This document shows positions 20,112 through 59,100 of a stretch of 64,000 bases of DNA, piece by piece. Location of the stretch: the NCBI RefSeq assembly GCF_900169365.1, contig NZ_FXZH01000010.1, forward strand, positions 81,218 through 145,217, given 5' to 3'. The notes under the pieces are model-generated. The model was not told where the DNA came from. It was given only the letters and a program-made list of their open reading frames with translations, and did not search any database. The translations under genes were made by a program, and so were the position numbers. Source of the DNA: Brevibacterium sp. 239c (GTDB lineage Bacteria; Actinomycetota; Actinomycetes; Actinomycetales; Brevibacteriaceae). The first letter of the stretch is position 1. The number at the start of each line of letters is the position of its first letter.

Positions 20112-21241
20112 GGCTGAGTCGCGAGGAGTGCACCGATCGAACGCCGCAGCCGGGACACCTCGGCGCGCACTGTGACCTGATGGTCGGCATCACCGTAGAG
20201 CTTGAGGCTGAGATCGCCGGCCCTGATGCCAGCTGGCCCCGCCGAGGTGATCGCTGAGAGGATCTGAGCGCGCCGGGGCGTGAGGGGCACGACGAATGGG
20301 TCAGTGCTCGATTCGATCTCCAGCATCGCAGACCGAGCTGTCTGCCGCAGCACTACCGACACCTGCTGAGCGTTGATGTCGGCACTCGGCCGCAGCAGCC
20401 AACCACCGGTCACCCTCTCCGGGATGCAAAGACCGGCACCGGGGATGAGGATCGTGCGATCAGACGCCGGCACCTCTATCCGCTCTTGGCTCTGCACTCC
20501 CTGTCGGTAGGCGACCCAGCCCTCATCATCGACGACCAGCGCCGGCCCCCGACTGCCGTTGAGGACAGTGGACATGCGAGTGCGCAGACTGCTCAGGTGC
20601 TCCTGCCGGATGAGGGAAAGCCGGGCCTCGGCCAGGCGGACAGCGGTTGTCACCAAGGACTGCACCGCCGGGTGGAGAGTCAGCGCCGGCCCGCTGATGT
20701 CGACGACGCCTAGGAGCCGGCCATCACTGGGATCATGGACGGGAACGGCGCTGCAGTACCAGGGGTGCTGCGAGGTCTCGAAGTGTTCGGCGGAGAACAG
20801 CTGAACTGGGGCCTCTTCGGTCAACGCGGTGCCGATGGCATTGGTGCCCACCACGGGTTCGGACCAGTGGGCACCCTCGACGAAGCCGAGACTGTCCGCC
20901 TGTCGCTGGGCGGCACTGGCACCGTCGCGCCACAGGATCACACCCTCGGCGTCGGTGACGACCAGGATGAAGGTCGCGGCATCGGGAATCCGCAGAAGAA
21001 TGGTTTTGAGCTCATCAACGATGAGGCGCAGCTTCGAATCGCGTCTGCGGGACTCCACATCCGCCTCGGCGGAAAGAACTCGACGATTGCCGCCCGAGGG
21101 ATCCAACCCCAAGCGCAGCATCCTCTGCCACGAGCGTGCAACGAGCGCTCGCGGCTGCTCCGGCGGCGAACCGCCGGTGATCACGGCATCGTGAATGCGG
21201 GACAGATCCCGAGCAAGATGCGCCAGGTCGAGCTGAGGCAT
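20051..21241 (-). CDS. GAF-domain transcriptional regulator (AcoR-like, without AAA+ domain)
   Basis: 396-residue regulator. The N-terminal part (SPPEQPRALVARSWQRMLRLGLDPSGG) and the GAF domain (ILVVTDAEGVILWRDGASAAQRQADSLGFVEGAHWSEPVVGTNAIGTALTEEAPVQLFSAEHF) match AcoR-type sensors of aldehydes, ketones or alcohols. The sigma54-type AAA+ module is absent; instead the C-terminus looks like a winged helix (LTPRRAQILSAITSAGPAGIRAGDLSLKLYGDADHQVTVRAEVSRLRRSIG). ATG 21241 is chosen because TATACT lies 7 nt upstream (leaderless type). It is divergent from the flavin monooxygenase gene, its probable target. Confidence 0.85.
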   Translation of the reverse strand: MPQLDLAHLARDLSRIHDAVITGGSPPEQPRALVARSWQRMLRLGLDPSGGNRRVLSAEADVESRRRDSKLRLIVDELKTILLRIPDAATFILVVTDAEGVILWRDGASAAQRQADSLGFVEGAHWSEPVVGTNAIGTALTEEAPVQLFSAEHFETSQHPWYCSAVPVHDPSDGRLLGVVDISGPALTLHPAVQSLVTTAVRLAEARLSLIRQEHLSSLRTRMSTVLNGSRGPALVVDDEGWVAYRQGVQSQERIEVPASDRTILIPGAGLCIPERVTGGWLLRPSADINAQQVSVVLRQTARSAMLEIESSTDPFVVPLTPRRAQILSAITSAGPAGIRAGDLSLKLYGDADHQVTVRAEVSRLRRSIGALLATQPYRWAEGVSARFDEAASASS

Positions 21242-21271
21242 GCTTCCGAGTATAGGGGTGATGTGGCTCAC

Positions 21272-21281
21272 TGCATATGCA
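21272..21281. promoter_or_regulatory. TGCATATGCA palindrome between GAF regulator and monooxygenase
   Basis: A perfect 10-bp palindrome is followed by a direct repeat (ATGCAACtcgATGCAAC, 21278-21294). It lies in the 114-bp divergent promoter region and is a candidate binding site for the GAF regulator. No experimental motif is known to me. Confidence 0.35.
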
Positions 21282-21355
21282 ACTCGATGCAACCCTTTCT
21301 TCGGTGCCGGCGGCGGCATAGCTTGGAGTCACACAGCTCAACGAAGAGGAGTGAC

Positions 21356-23176
21356 ATGACAACGACAATCGACCGCCAGCAGCTCACAGCCGATGACATT
21401 GCAACGCAGTGGCTGGGCGATTTCGAATCCGCGATGCGCAGCAGGGACGTCGAAGCCGCAGTGAGTCTGTTCGCCACCACGAGTTACTGGAGGGACCTCG
21501 TCGCCTTCTCCTGGAACCTGTGCACCGTCGAGAACCGTGACGGCATCAGGGACCTTCTGACGGAGGTCATCGACCGCGTCGCCGCATCGGACTTCGAACT
21601 CGGAGAACCGGCCACCACAGCCGATGGAGTCACCGAAGCCTGGTTCACCTATGCCACCGCAGTCGGCAGGGGCAAGGGCATGGTTCGTCTGGTCGACGAA
21701 GACGGAACCAAAGCGTGGACGCTGCTCACTACTTTGCAGGAGCTCAAAGACCACGAGGAGCCGCAGGGACCTCGCCGGCCCAAAGGAGCCGAACACGGAG
21801 TCGACCCCGAGCGGAAGAGCTGGTCGGAGAAGCTCGCCGAGGAGGATGCCGCCTGGGGTGACACCGCCCAGCCGTACACGCTCGTCGTCGGTGGGGGACA
21901 GGGCGGCATCGCACTCGGCGCTCGCCTGCGCCAGCTGGGTGTTCCGGCACTCGTCATCGATCGGTGGGAACGGCCCGGAGACCAGTGGCGCTCGCGGTAC
22001 AAGTCGCTGTGCCTGCACGACCCTGTCTGGTACGACCACCTGCCCTATCTCAAGTTCCCTGAGAATTGGCCGGTGTTCGCTCCCAAGGACAAGATCGCTG
22101 ACTGGTTGGAGTTCTACACCAAGGTGATGGAGATTCCGTACTGGTCATCGACGACAGCCACCTCGGCGAAATATGACGAAGCCTCTGGTCAGTGGACGGT
22201 CAACGTCGAACGCAACGGTGAGAAGATCACTCTCAACCCGACGCACCTGGTCATGGCCACGGGGATGTCGGGTAAGCCCAACGTTCCCTCGTTCCCAGGA
22301 TCCGATGTCTTCCAGGGCGAACAGCAGCACTCCTCGCAGCACCCCGGGCCCGATGCCTATGCCGGTAAGAAGGTCGTCGTCATCGGCAGCAACAACTCCG
22401 CTTTCGACATCTGTGGGGCACTGTATGAGAACGATGCAGACGTGACGATGGTCCAGCGCTCGAGTACTCACATCGTCAAGAGCGACTCACTCATGGACAT
22501 CGGCCTCGGCGACCTCTATTCGGAGAAGGCGCTCGCCAACGGAGTGACCACTGAGAAGGCCGACCTCACGTTTGCCTCCCTGCCGTATCGGATCATGCCC
22601 GAGTTCCAGATCCCGCTCTATGAGCAGATGAAAGAACGCGACAAGGACTTCTACCAGCGGATGACGGATGCAGGGTTCGACCTCGACTTCGGTGACGATG
22701 AGTCCGGAATGTTCTTGAAGTACCTGCGCCGGGGCTCCGGCTACTACATCGACGTCGGCTCAGCTGAGCTCATCGCCGATGGCAAGGTGAAATTGGCCAA
22801 AGGCAATGTCGACCATCTGACTGCTGACTCTGTGGTGTTGGAAGACGGTACCGAGTTGCCGGCCGACCTCGTCGTCTATGCGACCGGATACGGGTCGATG
22901 AATGGTTGGGTTGCTGATCTCATCGATCAGGAGACAGCAGACAAAGTCGGCAAATGCTGGGGCCTGGGCTCGGACACGACGAAGGATCCGGGCCCGTGGG
23001 AAGGCGAACAGCGCAATATGTGGAAGCCCACCCAGCAGGAGAACCTATGGTTCATGGGCGGGAACCTGCACCAGTCGCGGCACTACTCGCTGTACTTGGC
23101 ACTCCAGCTCAAGGCCCGCTATGAGGGACTCGAGACGCCGGTGTACAACCTGCAGGAAGTGCACCACCTGGCGTGA
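21356..23176 (+). CDS. Flavin-containing monooxygenase with N-terminal NTF2-like region
   Basis: 606-residue FAD/NADPH monooxygenase. Residues about 1-150 look like an NTF2/SnoaL-type domain (DIATQWLGDFESAMRSRDVEAAVSLFATTSYWRDLVAFSWNLCTVENRDGI). The FAD site is YTLVVGGGQGGIALGARLRQLGVPALVIDR near residue 180, and the NADPH site is KKVVVIGSNNSAFDICGALYENDADVTMVQRSS. ATG motifs (LVMATGMSGKPN, LVVYATGYGS) are present. Such enzymes oxygenate ketones, amines or sulfur compounds. GAAGAGGAG precedes ATG 21356. It is divergent from a GAF regulator, which suggests substrate-induced expression. Confidence 0.92.
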   Translation: MTTTIDRQQLTADDIATQWLGDFESAMRSRDVEAAVSLFATTSYWRDLVAFSWNLCTVENRDGIRDLLTEVIDRVAASDFELGEPATTADGVTEAWFTYATAVGRGKGMVRLVDEDGTKAWTLLTTLQELKDHEEPQGPRRPKGAEHGVDPERKSWSEKLAEEDAAWGDTAQPYTLVVGGGQGGIALGARLRQLGVPALVIDRWERPGDQWRSRYKSLCLHDPVWYDHLPYLKFPENWPVFAPKDKIADWLEFYTKVMEIPYWSSTTATSAKYDEASGQWTVNVERNGEKITLNPTHLVMATGMSGKPNVPSFPGSDVFQGEQQHSSQHPGPDAYAGKKVVVIGSNNSAFDICGALYENDADVTMVQRSSTHIVKSDSLMDIGLGDLYSEKALANGVTTEKADLTFASLPYRIMPEFQIPLYEQMKERDKDFYQRMTDAGFDLDFGDDESGMFLKYLRRGSGYYIDVGSAELIADGKVKLAKGNVDHLTADSVVLEDGTELPADLVVYATGYGSMNGWVADLIDQETADKVGKCWGLGSDTTKDPGPWEGEQRNMWKPTQQENLWFMGGNLHQSRHYSLYLALQLKARYEGLETPVYNLQEVHHLA

Positions 23177-23424
23177 TTGGTGAGGGCGGGGCCGGGCCTG
23201 AGTGGGCTGGGGCTGCGTGGGCTGCGCCTGGGCGGGCCGGGTCGCCGTTGGCTGAACCGAGTTGTTCGCACTTAGGCGAGTTGCGCAGTCGCGCCGCGCA
23301 GTCGAGTCACGCGTATTACGCCGAATTTCGTGCACTAGGCCGAGTTGCGGACGATCCGTGTTGAAATCTGCTCCGGATTCCAGCACAGATCGTCCGCAAC
23401 TCAGCTGTCAGGAGGTCTGGCCGG
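23177..23424. other. Repeat-rich intergenic region left of the DUF559 gene
   Basis: A G-rich stretch follows the monooxygenase stop. Then GCACTTAGGCGAGTTGCG (23268-23285) recurs imperfectly as GCACTAGGCCGAGTTGCG (23332-23349), a direct repeat leading into the palindromic element at 23342-23402. I see no gene. Confidence 0.5.
23342..23402. repeat. Palindromic element L flanking the DUF559 gene
   Basis: Left arm GAGTTGCGGACGATC..., right arm ...GATCGTCCGCAACTC, 22 bp each with two mismatches, around a 17-nt loop whose edges also pair (AATC/GATT). The left arm equals the reverse complement of the right arm of the second element at 24502-24562 over all 22 bases. The two elements therefore lie in inverted orientation on both sides of the gene. 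Confidence 0.85.
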
Positions 23425-24369
23425 TCAGGACAGCCCAAGGTGGTGGCGAATCTGCGCCTCGAGCTGCTGATAATTCACTTTGCTTGTCACATGGATGACG
23501 GTCCAACCTTCGGTGCGCAGTGCTTCATCGCGTCGAATGTCGCTCTGCCACTGCTGTTTCGATCGCAGATGGTGTTCGCCCTCGTACTCAAGGGCCAGCA
23601 GATCGTCGGGATAGCCGAGGTCCGGTTCGACTGTGCGTTTGAGCAGCGGGCTGTAGATCTTCGGATGGACGACGGGTTCAGGGAGGCCGACGGCAAGCGT
23701 CCACAGTCGTAGGTCGGTTTCCGGTGGGGAGTCGACGGTGAGGCGGACCAAGTCGAGTGCCTCGATGAGGTGAGCACGTCGACGGACGAAAGGCCGATTG
23801 CAGACGTGCTCCTGGAGTTCGTCGAGGCTGATCTGCGGTGGGCCGTGCCAATTGCCGACTGCGGCGTCGCCGAGTTTCACAAGGTCCCGCTGGCCGAGAT
23901 CTTTGCCGAGGCCGATGAACGCATCTTCGGGAGCAACAACCTCAAGGCCACACCACTGCCGTGTCGACATCTTGGTCATCCTATGCAGTCTGATCTGAGA
24001 GATCCTGATCCGTGAATGCCTGTTGCTCACAGAGACGTGAAGTTGAGACGTCCGCCAATTAGACGGCAGCGGCCATCCGTACAGCCGGGCGGCCATCGCG
24101 TGACTGGCCGCGATTCCCGGGTAGAGGAGCTGGGCGGCGCGGAACCGCAGCGCGTCCCATTTCCAGAAGTCGTCCGCCCAGGTCGGAGTGGGGCATCGGT
24201 CGAAGGCCTCGAGGTCCGATCTCACTCCGGGGAGTACTTGCTCATAGCGCTTCGAGTGATAAAGGGAATGTCGTGTGATTCCCCGTGCGGTGTAGTCCTG
24301 GGTGCGGAACAGCTGTGGAAAATCTCGCATCACCCACCTGTCTCCATTGAACATGGATGACATCATCAC
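23425..24369 (-). CDS. AbiEi-like HTH plus DUF559 (Vsr-like nuclease fold) protein
   Basis: 314-residue protein. The N-terminus resembles the AbiEi-type winged helix (FPQLFRTQDYTARGITRHSLYHSKRYEQVLPGVRS). A middle region has ALRFRAAQLLYPGIAASHAMAARLYGWPLP and VVAPEDAFIGLGKDLGQRDLVKLGDAAVGN. The C-terminus (PDLGYPDDLLALEYEGEHHLRSKQQWQSDIRRDEALRTEGWTVIHVTSKV) fits DUF559, a Vsr/restriction-endonuclease fold with E-E and D-R residues in the expected order. No partner AbiEii toxin is adjacent. The gene is enclosed by inverted palindromic elements and carries another inverted repeat just upstream. The role is unknown; an innate-immunity or mobile-element function is only a hypothesis. Confidence 0.8.
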   Translation of the reverse strand: MMMSSMFNGDRWVMRDFPQLFRTQDYTARGITRHSLYHSKRYEQVLPGVRSDLEAFDRCPTPTWADDFWKWDALRFRAAQLLYPGIAASHAMAARLYGWPLPSNWRTSQLHVSVSNRHSRIRISQIRLHRMTKMSTRQWCGLEVVAPEDAFIGLGKDLGQRDLVKLGDAAVGNWHGPPQISLDELQEHVCNRPFVRRRAHLIEALDLVRLTVDSPPETDLRLWTLAVGLPEPVVHPKIYSPLLKRTVEPDLGYPDDLLALEYEGEHHLRSKQQWQSDIRRDEALRTEGWTVIHVTSKVNYQQLEAQIRHHLGLS

Positions 24370-24404
24370 TCACTTCGCGGCGAGAAGAAATGGCTTGAAA
24401 TCAG

Positions 24405-24433
24405 CCTGTGGACAGAACTTTTTCGTCCACAGG
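24405..24433. repeat. Inverted repeat with DnaA-box-like arms upstream of the DUF559 gene
   Basis: CCTGTGGAC-11 nt-GTCCACAGG is a perfect 9-bp inverted repeat 36 bp before the DUF559 start. Each arm, read outward, is one base from the actinobacterial DnaA box TTGTCCACA. It may be an operator, a hairpin or a replication-protein site. Confidence 0.5.
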
Positions 24434-24501
24434 AATCTACGCACGAGTGCGTGGGGTGGAGGAGCGGGGTTGCCACACGCTGGAGAGCGGGGTGCGCCTG
24501 C

Positions 24502-24562
24502 AAGTTGCGGACGATCTGTGCTGAAAACCGAGTCGGAAATCAACACGGATCGTCCGCAACTC
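24502..24562. repeat. Palindromic element R flanking the DUF559 gene
   Basis: Left arm AAGTTGCGGACGATC... and right arm ...GATCGTCCGCAACTC around a 17-nt loop. The differences between its two arms mirror those of element L, which shows that it is an inverted copy of L and not an independent palindrome. The rest of 24370-24694 shows no gene. Confidence 0.85.
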
Positions 24563-24694
24563 GGTAGGGATAGCTAGACGGCAGAGCGTGGCTCGGAAGT
24601 GAAAGCTTGAGGGCAGCGAGCTCCACGTCAGAATCAGCGCAGTTCGCTCACCTCATGGGCGTACTCAGCAGGTGCTCTGATACCTGAAGCCCGA

Positions 24695-25216
24695 TCACAG
24701 ACCCAGTCGTGCCAGCACGTTCTTCACGTGGGCCAGAGCCTCGTCCTGGGAGAGGCTGAAATTCTGGTTGAAGTACATGCCGTCGCCGATGAGCTGTACG
24801 GTCATCGCCAGATCGGGATCGCCGAGATGTTCATTGAGTGCATCGAACCAGGCTTCTCGGGTCCTCCGGAGCGTGTCCTTCGCCTGTTCATTCTCCTGCG
24901 CCAGGCAGCTTGCCGCGATGAGACTGCGGTCCAGCGGTGTGCCGGTCTCGGCTGAGGTCTCAAGATAGTACATGTGCAGGCGATCGCCAGCATTCTTCAT
25001 CTCCGCAACATCTTCTTCGACAAGCCGGTCGAGACGCTCGAGACTGCCCTTGATCAGCTCCGCCTTCGACCCGTAGTGATAAAGCAGGCCTCCCTTGGAG
25101 ACACCAGCTTTCGCTGCGACCGCGTCGAGTGTTGCCCCCGAGATACCGTGTTTTTCTAGCAGGAGATCGAAGGCGTCGAGGAGCTTCTCTTTGGTGTCGG
25201 TGGAGTTGCGTGCCAT
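24695..25216 (-). CDS. TetR-family regulator
   Basis: 173-residue repressor. The HTH is KEKLLDAFDLLLEKHGISGATLDAVAAKAGVSKGGLLYHYGSKAELIKGSLERLDRLVEEDV. The ligand domain resembles the TetR_C_37 type (DRSLIAASCLAQENEQAKDTLRRTREAWFDAL). I chose ATG 25216 because TAGGCT (25229-25224) lies 7 nt upstream, a leaderless -10; the in-frame ATG at 25252 lies within 3 bp of the upstream gene's stop. It follows a second TetR gene on the same strand. The target is unknown. Confidence 0.85.
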   Translation of the reverse strand: MARNSTDTKEKLLDAFDLLLEKHGISGATLDAVAAKAGVSKGGLLYHYGSKAELIKGSLERLDRLVEEDVAEMKNAGDRLHMYYLETSAETGTPLDRSLIAASCLAQENEQAKDTLRRTREAWFDALNEHLGDPDLAMTVQLIGDGMYFNQNFSLSQDEALAHVKNVLARLGL

Positions 25217-25254
25217 AGCGTTGAGCCTAGTCGATGGCTGTGGTTCCGCCATCG

Positions 25255-25893
25255 CTATGGGCGGCGATCGATTCCGCTGACGACGATATCGGTGACTTGG
25301 GCGGCCAACTCGGCAAGGTCAGACTCGGACTGATCCGGATTCGGCCGATACCACATGTCGACCGCGTTGAGACTGCTCAGCAGCGTCCGCACCAGCATCT
25401 TTGGTTCCAGCGGGCGGATGGAACCGTCCTCGATTCCCGCTGCAGCCACTGACTTGAAGAGGTCTTCGTATTCCGCTCTCAGACGGTTCAGCTCTGCCAG
25501 CTGCTCACGCTGCCGGGGCCGCAGCGCCACCGAGCGCTGTTCGCGGACTCCTTCATGCACGACCTGGTGATAGCCGAGATCAACCATGATCTGGAGGACG
25601 TGGGCCGTCGACATGGCCAGCAGGCGGTCGAAGCCGGTTCCCGGCCCATCGACGCACGGGTCGACGCGAGCTCGTGAACGCACCATGCCTTCCTTGTAGA
25701 CGGCGAGGAAGATGTCGAACTTCGAGCGAAAATGGTAATAGATCAGACCCTTCGTCGCTCCGACGGCGTTGGCGATGTCATCAATGGTGGTGGCGTTGTA
25801 GCCGCCGAGCATGAACTCATCGGCCGCGGCATCGAGGATTCGCTGGCGCGTCTTCTCGGGAGCTCCAACGGAGGGGTCAACGTCCGTGCTCAC
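25255..25893 (-). CDS. TetR-family regulator, probable repressor of the divergent acyl-CoA cluster
   Basis: 212-residue repressor with the HTH TRQRILDAAADEFMLGGYNATTIDDIANAVGATKGLIYYHFRSKFDIFLAVYKEGM and a C-terminal domain with GYHQVVHEGVREQRSVALRPRQREQLAEL, reminiscent of fatty-acid or steroid regulators of the KstR2 kind. GTG 25893 follows GAGG. It is divergent from the SDR gene at 26110, and a TetR-type inverted repeat lies in the gap, so control of the catabolic cluster is likely. Confidence 0.85.
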   Translation of the reverse strand: MSTDVDPSVGAPEKTRQRILDAAADEFMLGGYNATTIDDIANAVGATKGLIYYHFRSKFDIFLAVYKEGMVRSRARVDPCVDGPGTGFDRLLAMSTAHVLQIMVDLGYHQVVHEGVREQRSVALRPRQREQLAELNRLRAEYEDLFKSVAAAGIEDGSIRPLEPKMLVRTLLSSLNAVDMWYRPNPDQSESDLAELAAQVTDIVVSGIDRRP

Positions 25894-55250: not shown

Positions 55251-55323
55251 GGCGAGGCGAGGCGCAAGCGCCCCGCGGGGCCGAGCCCCACGCTCCAGCC
55301 GTGACGTTTCATCGAGCGCAGAT

Positions 55324-55369
55324 CGCAGCGTCGAGAGCAGACTGTATACCCTCTGCCCTCGACGCTGCG
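55324..55369. terminator. Very stable hairpin after betC
   Basis: CGCAGCGTCGAG pairs fully with CTCGACGCTGCG, and GCAGA with TCTGC inside, leaving a 10-nt loop. The plus strand continues GTCGTCTTTCG. The GC palindrome GCCCCGCGGGGC (55270-55281) lies just upstream. Confidence 0.7.
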
Positions 55370-55523
55370 GTCGTCTTTCGGTGAGATCGAGACGAGATCG
55401 AGACGAGGGAGTAGCGGATCCCCGGCAGGGCCCACCTCGGCGGGGATAATTCACTCAGCATTGGGCGAGTTGCAGGTCACACTCTCAGACTCTGGTGGCA
55501 TCATCTGGAGTAGGAGGGATGTC

Positions 55524-59028: not shown

Positions 59029-59100
59029 GCCGAGGGGACCACTTAGCTTTGACCGGACCAGTTGCAACTGGTTCTCTCGGCGCTAAGGGGTCCCCTCGGC
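59029..59100. terminator. 72-nt two-level hairpin between membrane protein and purL genes
   Basis: The outer stem pairs GCCGAGGGGACC (59029) with GGTCCCCTCGGC (59089) and continues through CTTAGC/GCTAAG, 18 pairs with one mismatch. The inner part holds the palindrome ACCAGTTGCAACTGGT (59057-59072). It lies between two convergent genes and should act as a bidirectional terminator. It is larger than that job needs. Confidence 0.7.

Follow-up and report, generated by a model that had tools for sequence, protein, structure and literature searches.

A single gene standing between two long palindromes raises the question of what has moved: the gene and its palindromes as one cassette, the palindromes alone, or neither. 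Such a gene, of the DUF559 family, lies in the window (the whole stretch of Brevibacterium DNA analysed, 64 kb in length), and the first-pass annotation of that sequence suggested that gene and palindromes together may be a mobile or defence unit. The features of the locus, in window coordinates, are as follows.

20735..23176, + strand: flavin monooxygenase (FMO) reading frame, with the true start inside the frame; conserved convergent neighbour and locus marker
23342..23402, no strand assigned: left palindrome, 61 bp, on the 3' (downstream) side of the DUF559 gene
23425..24369, - strand: intact DUF559 / MTES_1575 gene, 314 aa; GTG start as listed, with ATG codons directly after
23428..23730, - strand: predicted Vsr / EDxHD-type nuclease domain, residues 214-314, with invariant E217, D250, H267 and D277
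23743..24327, - strand: AbiEi-antitoxin-like part, residues 15-209, DNA-binding by prediction
24502..24562, no strand assigned: right palindrome, 61 bp, on the 5' (upstream) side of the gene and ~130 bp ahead of its start codon
24695..25252, - strand: TetR-type regulator; conserved upstream neighbour and locus marker

Palindromes of the window locus

The two 61-bp palindromes bracket the DUF559 gene in inverted orientation and each is itself a hairpin, as had been described. Over 23 bases, one more than the 22 claimed, the two outer arms (the left one of the left element and the right one of the right element) are reverse complements of each other, and the inner arms match at 21 of 22 positions, exactly as claimed. 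Positions 23340-23401 and 24503-24564 are 87% complementary over 62 nt (80% over 60 nt in the direct register), and the self-folding elements extend over 23339-23405 and 24503-24561. Folded as single-stranded DNA, the palindromes yield -22.8 and -23.8 kcal/mol (z = -8.0 and -8.6), a stability reached in neither case by any of 200 shuffled sequences. A hairpin scan of the entire 64-kb window, which serves as a second, small control beside the flank control windows described below, found six hairpins of score 13 or more (loop 3-30), two of which are this pair. Exact matches to the 15-base arm tip occur four times in the genome, three of them in the window pair and one in a solo copy within fhs. 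No Rfam structured RNA was matched at E ≤1 within 22500-25500.

Two other long hairpins are present in the window, at 55321-55372 and 59029-59100 (scores 16 and 16.5), and are unrelated in sequence. A diverged direct repeat of 29 bases (72%) at 23257-23349, with arm-tip-like GAGTTG/GAGTTGCG, precedes and overlaps the left palindrome and is possibly an older, decayed palindrome copy.

The DUF559 protein

Pfam searches of the window protein returned MTES_1575/DUF559 only and no HUH/Y1 tyrosine transposase, in line with the earlier statement that the gene encodes no known transposase. The MTES_1575 match of this protein, at 26.3 bits, lies under Pfam's own cut-off of 38.2 bits; the family matches 64 of 65 aligned members, and E217, D250, H267 and D277 are invariant across the 65-sequence alignment. 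NCBIfam gave no match to the window protein, PHROGs a single match at E 0.61 and a sequence-profile search of solved structures nothing better than E 0.5, so that the fold assignment rests on the structure model. In this model an AbiEi fold is joined to an EDxHD/Vsr fold, and the protein is accordingly predicted to consist of an AbiEi-type DNA-binding half and a nuclease half like that of the EDxHD homing endonuclease I-Bth0305I. With Foldseek alone, matches to the modelled nuclease part are weak (E 0.17 for 3r3p and 0.49 for 1vsr), and mitoribosome chains rank between these two in the structure comparison; in a viral structure library, the best matches over the nuclease part are DUF559-type and homing-endonuclease-like proteins at E ~1e-4. 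The DUF559 family is under purifying selection, with dN/dS of 0.08-0.40 in the 12 informative of 13 pairs. Assignment to a known anti-phage defence family was rejected, as none of the PADLOC models (library of 2023) matched the window protein at E ≤1. A stronger MTES_1575 match is present elsewhere in the same genome, within a frame of ~1600 residues (L280, G000:C28:27376-27642) that is probably a large multi-domain MTES_1575 form.

Hairpin flanks and cognate arms in Brevibacterium and beyond

The genome from which the window is taken (G000) encodes three further paralogs, 36-46% identical, each of which is bracketed by palindromes of 51-64 bp whose arm sequences are quite different; the four genes fall in different lineages. 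Across the genus, 145 matches were found in 55 of 57 Brevibacterium genomes, of which 113 were studied (122 loci with matches, less L009-L017, which duplicate whole-genome loci); the 32 left out are mostly the weakest. The best hairpin within 500 nt scored 14 or more upstream of 57 and downstream of 82 of these 113 loci, compared with 0 of 220 control windows, largely coding, placed 1-1.5 kb away. Such a strong hairpin is present on at least one side in 90 of the 113 loci and on both sides in 49, and in 11 neither side has a hairpin even at a laxer score of 11.

The two hairpins of a locus resemble each other. In 70 loci with hairpins of score 11 or more on both sides, left-right similarity averaged 27.9, as against 6.8 for 4360 pairs from different loci, and 58 of the 70 left-right pairs lie above the 99% point (12.0) of those 4360 pairs; the other 12 are not cognate. 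Left and right hairpins of the same locus taken from different genomes are intermediate (mean 15.1, 470 pairs). Arm similarity also tracks protein similarity, with Mantel r of 0.83 for the 17 loci at the TetR/monooxygenase site and 0.69 for the 70 loci (0 of 2000 permutations as high for each set), a correlation of which common descent by itself would produce part. More tellingly, where genes at the TetR/monooxygenase site are 50-60% identical in protein sequence, their hairpins are only as alike as those of unrelated loci (mean 6.7), yet in most loci the left arms continue to agree with the right ones. All four arms of a locus therefore change in concert. The suspected link of palindromes to gene stands.

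The association extends to other families of the order. A homolog was detected in 142 of 198 order-wide genomes, 15 of the 142 being Brevibacterium. Among 35 loci from other families of the order, hairpins were found on both sides in 16, cognate in 15, leaving 20 with no cognate pair; among 20 loci elsewhere in the phylum, hairpins flank both sides in two and no pair is cognate. Both sets are non-random, consisting of best matches and hand-picked further rows, and the order-level loci L253, L254 and L263, two-sided in a wider scan only, are uncounted.

Dispersed solo palindromes

Copies of the palindromes were sought per genome by their half-sites; for the window family, for which the counts per genome are complete, the pattern was GAGTTSCGGACGATCYGTGC with at most 2 mismatches and the reversed pattern served as control. 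This family is present in 26 of 57 genomes, reaching 29 half-sites in one, and the control is absent from all 57. All 11 carriers of the window gene lineage have 6 or more half-sites (range 6 to 29), up to 4 of which are supplied by the gene's own flanks, and of the other 46 genomes 15 have half-sites, with 6 or more in one only (G053, 8). A recurring single match, GAGTTCCTGACGTTCCGTGC, had no second arm among the places listed and is probably not an element. The window's own genome has a solo copy in fhs and another two; whether the palindromes also exist alone had been raised as a question.

A second family (AACGGTTGGTA...) was found in 19 of 57 genomes, with control matches in 2 of 57. Its half-sites number 8 to 17 in six carriers and 2 in a seventh (G021, with diverged arms), and 6 to 13 in the sister-gene genomes G002, G028 and G047; G016 and G017, with no close gene among those listed, have 7 and 8. 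A third family, taken from another family of the order, occurs in 3 of 198 genomes (control 0), with 20 and 5 half-sites, flanks included, in two carriers of the cognate gene and 1 in the third genome. In all three tested families the solo palindromes are dispersed and concentrated where a cognate or sister gene is present. The arms are linked with DUF559 genes to that extent but not exclusively, since solo copies occur, and palindromes are also found in genomes lacking the cognate gene (G053, G026 and G029 for the window family, G016 and G017 for the second).

With lengths of 59-63 bp allowed, all but three of the printed elements are exactly 61 bp. Changes frequently occur on both arms of an element. 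In 23 solo copies of 61 bp, a set omitting gene-flanking elements, other lengths and most second members of orthologous pairs, covariation between the arms is moderate (score 0.136 vs 0.099 shuffled, 2 of 500 as high); pairs changed on both sides and further pair types were matched by 42 and 115 of 500 shuffles, respectively.

Insertion sites

Solo copies lie in fhs, which we take from its sequence to encode formate-tetrahydrofolate ligase. Of 56 genomes matched in the fhs search, 30 were aligned, and in six of these a 61-bp copy lies inside the coding sequence; G000 and G046 share one position, and G026, G044, G049 and G019 another. The copy in the window's own genome (L004 1455-1515, G000:C56) leaves the reading frame open. 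These elements sit in a hypervariable linker, the length of which varies anyway.

No clean pre-insertion site was found at the sites compared. The fhs linker is hypervariable, and L200 was rejected as an empty site as it could not be aligned. At a third site, G017 carries an element (L374) with ACCAACGGTT at its left end and ACCAACCGTT at its right end, and its sister G016 (L383) has no element and retains ACCAACCGTT; from the sequences, the difference looks like a deletion between short repeats. Because G028 carries an element at the same place, loss from G016 is more likely, and the site was rejected as a pre-insertion site. The L374 site (G017:C32:231820) holds AACGGTT-type palindromes in G017 and G028 and the GGACGATC type in G046 and G044, and this intergenic site may be a palindrome hotspot.

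Target duplications, which the earlier note had proposed to look for, were not seen when the flanks of 51 and 23 elements were compared with shuffled flanks. Identity over 3, 4 and 5 bases was observed in 3, 1 and 0 of the 51 elements (2.1, 0.4 and 0.03 shuffled) and in 0, 0 and 0 of the 23 (0.9, 0.1 and 0.1 shuffled). The flank composition of the same elements, taken position by position, shows no GTAG tetranucleotide beside the palindromes.

Possible functions of the palindromes

Taken together, the gene and its surrounding ~60-bp palindromes probably form a two-part system, in which the predicted DNA-binding nuclease would target the palindrome specific to its lineage, spreading copies of it and keeping them alike. 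An alternative is autoregulation with a small regulon: the AbiEi-like half would be a repressor and the palindromes its operators, at its own promoter and at other genes or as decoys, with the nuclease domain a fossil or in some other role. AbiEi-type antitoxins are described as binding inverted repeats in their own promoters (PMC7319586), the upstream palindrome precedes the start codon, and the arms co-vary with the protein. A repressor does not account well for a second full palindrome downstream in 82 of 113 loci, for copies within the coding sequence of fhs in 6 of 30 genomes, or for half-sites ranging from 6 to 29 among gene carriers, and the four invariant residues (65 sequences) would be superfluous to a pure repressor, which makes this explanation unlikely.

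A decidedly improbable reading credits the spread of the palindromes to a different, unlinked enzyme, with the nuclease gene a passenger or a defence gene insulated by chance. Some genomes do have palindromes and no cognate gene, and the DUF559 protein is a putative agent of movement; against this, dispersal is concentrated in gene carriers and, at many paralogous loci and across several families of the order, each gene lineage has a palindrome sequence of its own, whereas a general enzyme would not yield lineage-specific arms beside each paralog.

That the gene is an ordinary one, with the palindromes as hairpins that terminate transcription or insulate it, is very unlikely. Bidirectional terminators are expected where genes converge, as the TetR-DUF559 pair and the monooxygenase do here, and the right palindrome contains one weak terminator-like match (6 pairs; 2 matches in 2 kb, 1.0 expected), but the elements end without a T-run, their stems are very long, left and right arms share a sequence within each lineage, and dispersed copies with the same arms lie in places inside coding sequence. 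The terminator scan and these dispersed copies led to the rejection of a terminator-only function.

Inheritance and probable loss at the TetR/monooxygenase site

A TetR regulator of at least 67% identity was found in 38 genomes (G052 has a second copy elsewhere), and the DUF559 ortholog lies at the TetR/monooxygenase locus in 25 Brevibacterium genomes, including G041, in which the contig breaks between the gene and TetR. The window gene has therefore been mostly inherited in place. Seven genomes (G018, G026, G027, G029, G032, G042 and G053) have one solo palindrome at this site, and G036 has a single arm with no partner, its contig ending 257 nt past TetR. The remaining five lack a palindrome of this family at the site: G005 and G012 have none at all, and G007, G045 and G048 have other hairpins. 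The monooxygenase was not found in the stretch of G007 examined, where a 62-bp palindrome of different arm sequence (L199, score 18.5) lies just past TetR. The refuting conditions proposed earlier therefore give a divided answer: the arms also occur apart from DUF559 genes but are concentrated where a cognate or sister gene is present, and the locus is syntenic but gene-less sites exist, seven of them with one solo palindrome.

In the gene tree, 10 of the 14 listed multi-row locus groups form one clade each, and 19 locus changes are needed, the minimum possible being 16 for 17 groups. A clade at other loci, L042/L043/L047/L048 (G042, G032, G046 and G003), falls within the TetR-site genes (branch values 99/98 and 100/100). 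The hairpins of this nested clade are the best match for six of the seven solo palindromes at that site, and those of its sister for the one of G032, with best scores of 21 to 27 (99% point 12). Solo palindrome and nested-clade gene occur together in G042 and G032 only, and in the other five genomes no fetched gene has such arms. Most simply, a gene of the nested lineage would have left the TetR site, or been copied and then lost, with one palindrome remaining; as the element is almost its own reverse complement, recombination between two copies would leave one palindrome.

A single-gene cassette transposing as a unit, as first proposed, can call on the inverted terminal palindromes and on at least one relocation, that of the nested clade, but it is hardly credible and mostly refuted for the window locus by the shared locus in 25 genomes, 19 locus changes against a minimum of 16, four own-genome paralogs in different lineages and the target duplications that were not seen. 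An ordinary transposon was likewise rejected on the missing target duplication and the synteny. What survives of the mobile-unit idea is a palindrome system with its gene, and not a freely jumping gene: since the gene is syntenic in 25 genomes, solo copies are dispersed and a solo palindrome stands at gene-less sites, it is more likely the palindrome that moves, served by an enzyme whose gene mostly stays where it is.

Comparison with known systems

The closest parallel is with the REPtrons, described as having a mostly vertically inherited gene, cognate palindromes both adjoining and dispersed, several lineages per genus and co-variation of enzyme and palindrome (PMC8266576; PMC3116915). Like the RAYT-REPIN (TnpAREP) systems, the DUF559 loci combine a resident gene with dispersed, non-autonomous cognate palindromes that co-vary with it. 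Unlike them, the enzyme is AbiEi-like with a Vsr/EDxHD nuclease and not an HUH tyrosine transposase, the GTAG tag is absent beside the palindromes, and the elements are ~60 bp, the window family having at most 29 half-sites per genome instead of hundreds.

I-Bth0305I is stated in a review to dimerise on a target of nearly 60 bp (PMC3943268). The modelled EDxHD/Vsr-like nuclease fold is shared with this homing endonuclease, a resemblance in fold only: no intron or intein was seen at the DUF559 loci, the DNA-binding half is AbiEi-like, and the gene is bracketed by two complete proposed targets and does not interrupt one. The same site holds palindrome-gene-palindrome or one solo palindrome, depending on the genome, with no clean pre-insertion site. 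The N-terminal two thirds have, in the model, the fold of AbiEi antitoxins (S. agalactiae AbiEi 6y8q and Rv2827c 1zel), proteins of a type that binds inverted repeats (PMC7319586), but are fused to a nuclease domain; in contrast to AbiE toxin-antitoxin pairs, there is no partner toxin of DUF1814/AbiEii type, the window neighbours being the TetR and FMO genes that also mark the locus group. The family match places the protein with the Vsr-like MTES_1575 / DUF559 REases, a domain that takes its name from a large multi-domain HEPN-fusion protein (PMC3710099). MITEs and other palindromic repeats are similarly short, dispersed, non-coding and built of inverted repeats; unlike MITEs and DDE insertion sequences, the present elements show no target duplication, and their partner enzyme is a nuclease gene of a different class.

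As the enzyme and the tag that define REPtrons were not found and the homing endonuclease resemblance is one of fold, we rate the system as outside the known kinds while working like a REPtron. No description of a DUF559-palindrome association was found in the published open-licence papers searched. The best reading is a REPtron-like system with an unrelated, non-HUH nuclease, whose binding, cutting and copying we infer.

Proposed mechanism and implications

A lineage-specific 60-bp palindrome and a protein with both halves suggest a dimer, a central cut and repair from another copy. Two protein molecules would bind one palindrome, with one AbiEi-like half on each arm, and the two Vsr/EDxHD nuclease domains would cut or nick near its centre; the host would then repair the cut with another copy as template. 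Such repair would keep all copies in one genome alike, the four arms flanking the gene as well as the dispersed ones, and let them drift between lineages. Copies are observed at different places, and occasional repair or insertion elsewhere may be the route by which a solo copy arises. The gene normally keeps its position between its two palindromes and is passed on there, and the tree points to rare relocation; its loss would leave one palindrome, and solo palindromes are indeed observed, in an order of events that we presume. Cut and repair by a dimer would account for the uniform arms within a genome, the drift between lineages, the solo copies and the rare relocation.

In Brevibacterium and some of its relatives, palindrome and nuclease gene probably make up a small DNA unit of a new kind that spreads itself. 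A broader proposal seems to us evenly balanced between right and wrong: that these units form a new, palindromic class of mobile DNA found widely in Actinomycetales, in which an AbiEi-EDxHD dimer recognises the 60-bp palindrome of its own lineage and cuts its centre, and repair copies it, with the gene seated between two targets, enzyme and target co-evolving in place into many independent specificities, and the solo copies being both progeny and landing sites.

If the two-part system is real, the REPtron way of life, with a settled enzyme and short palindromes, would have arisen a second time with an unrelated nuclease, and a set of DUF559 genes of 'unknown function' would gain a substrate that can be read from their flanking DNA. 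Each such gene would bring its own predicted recognition sequence, so that dozens of protein-target pairs could be tested at once, a natural library for how the specificity of a nuclease changes together with its site.
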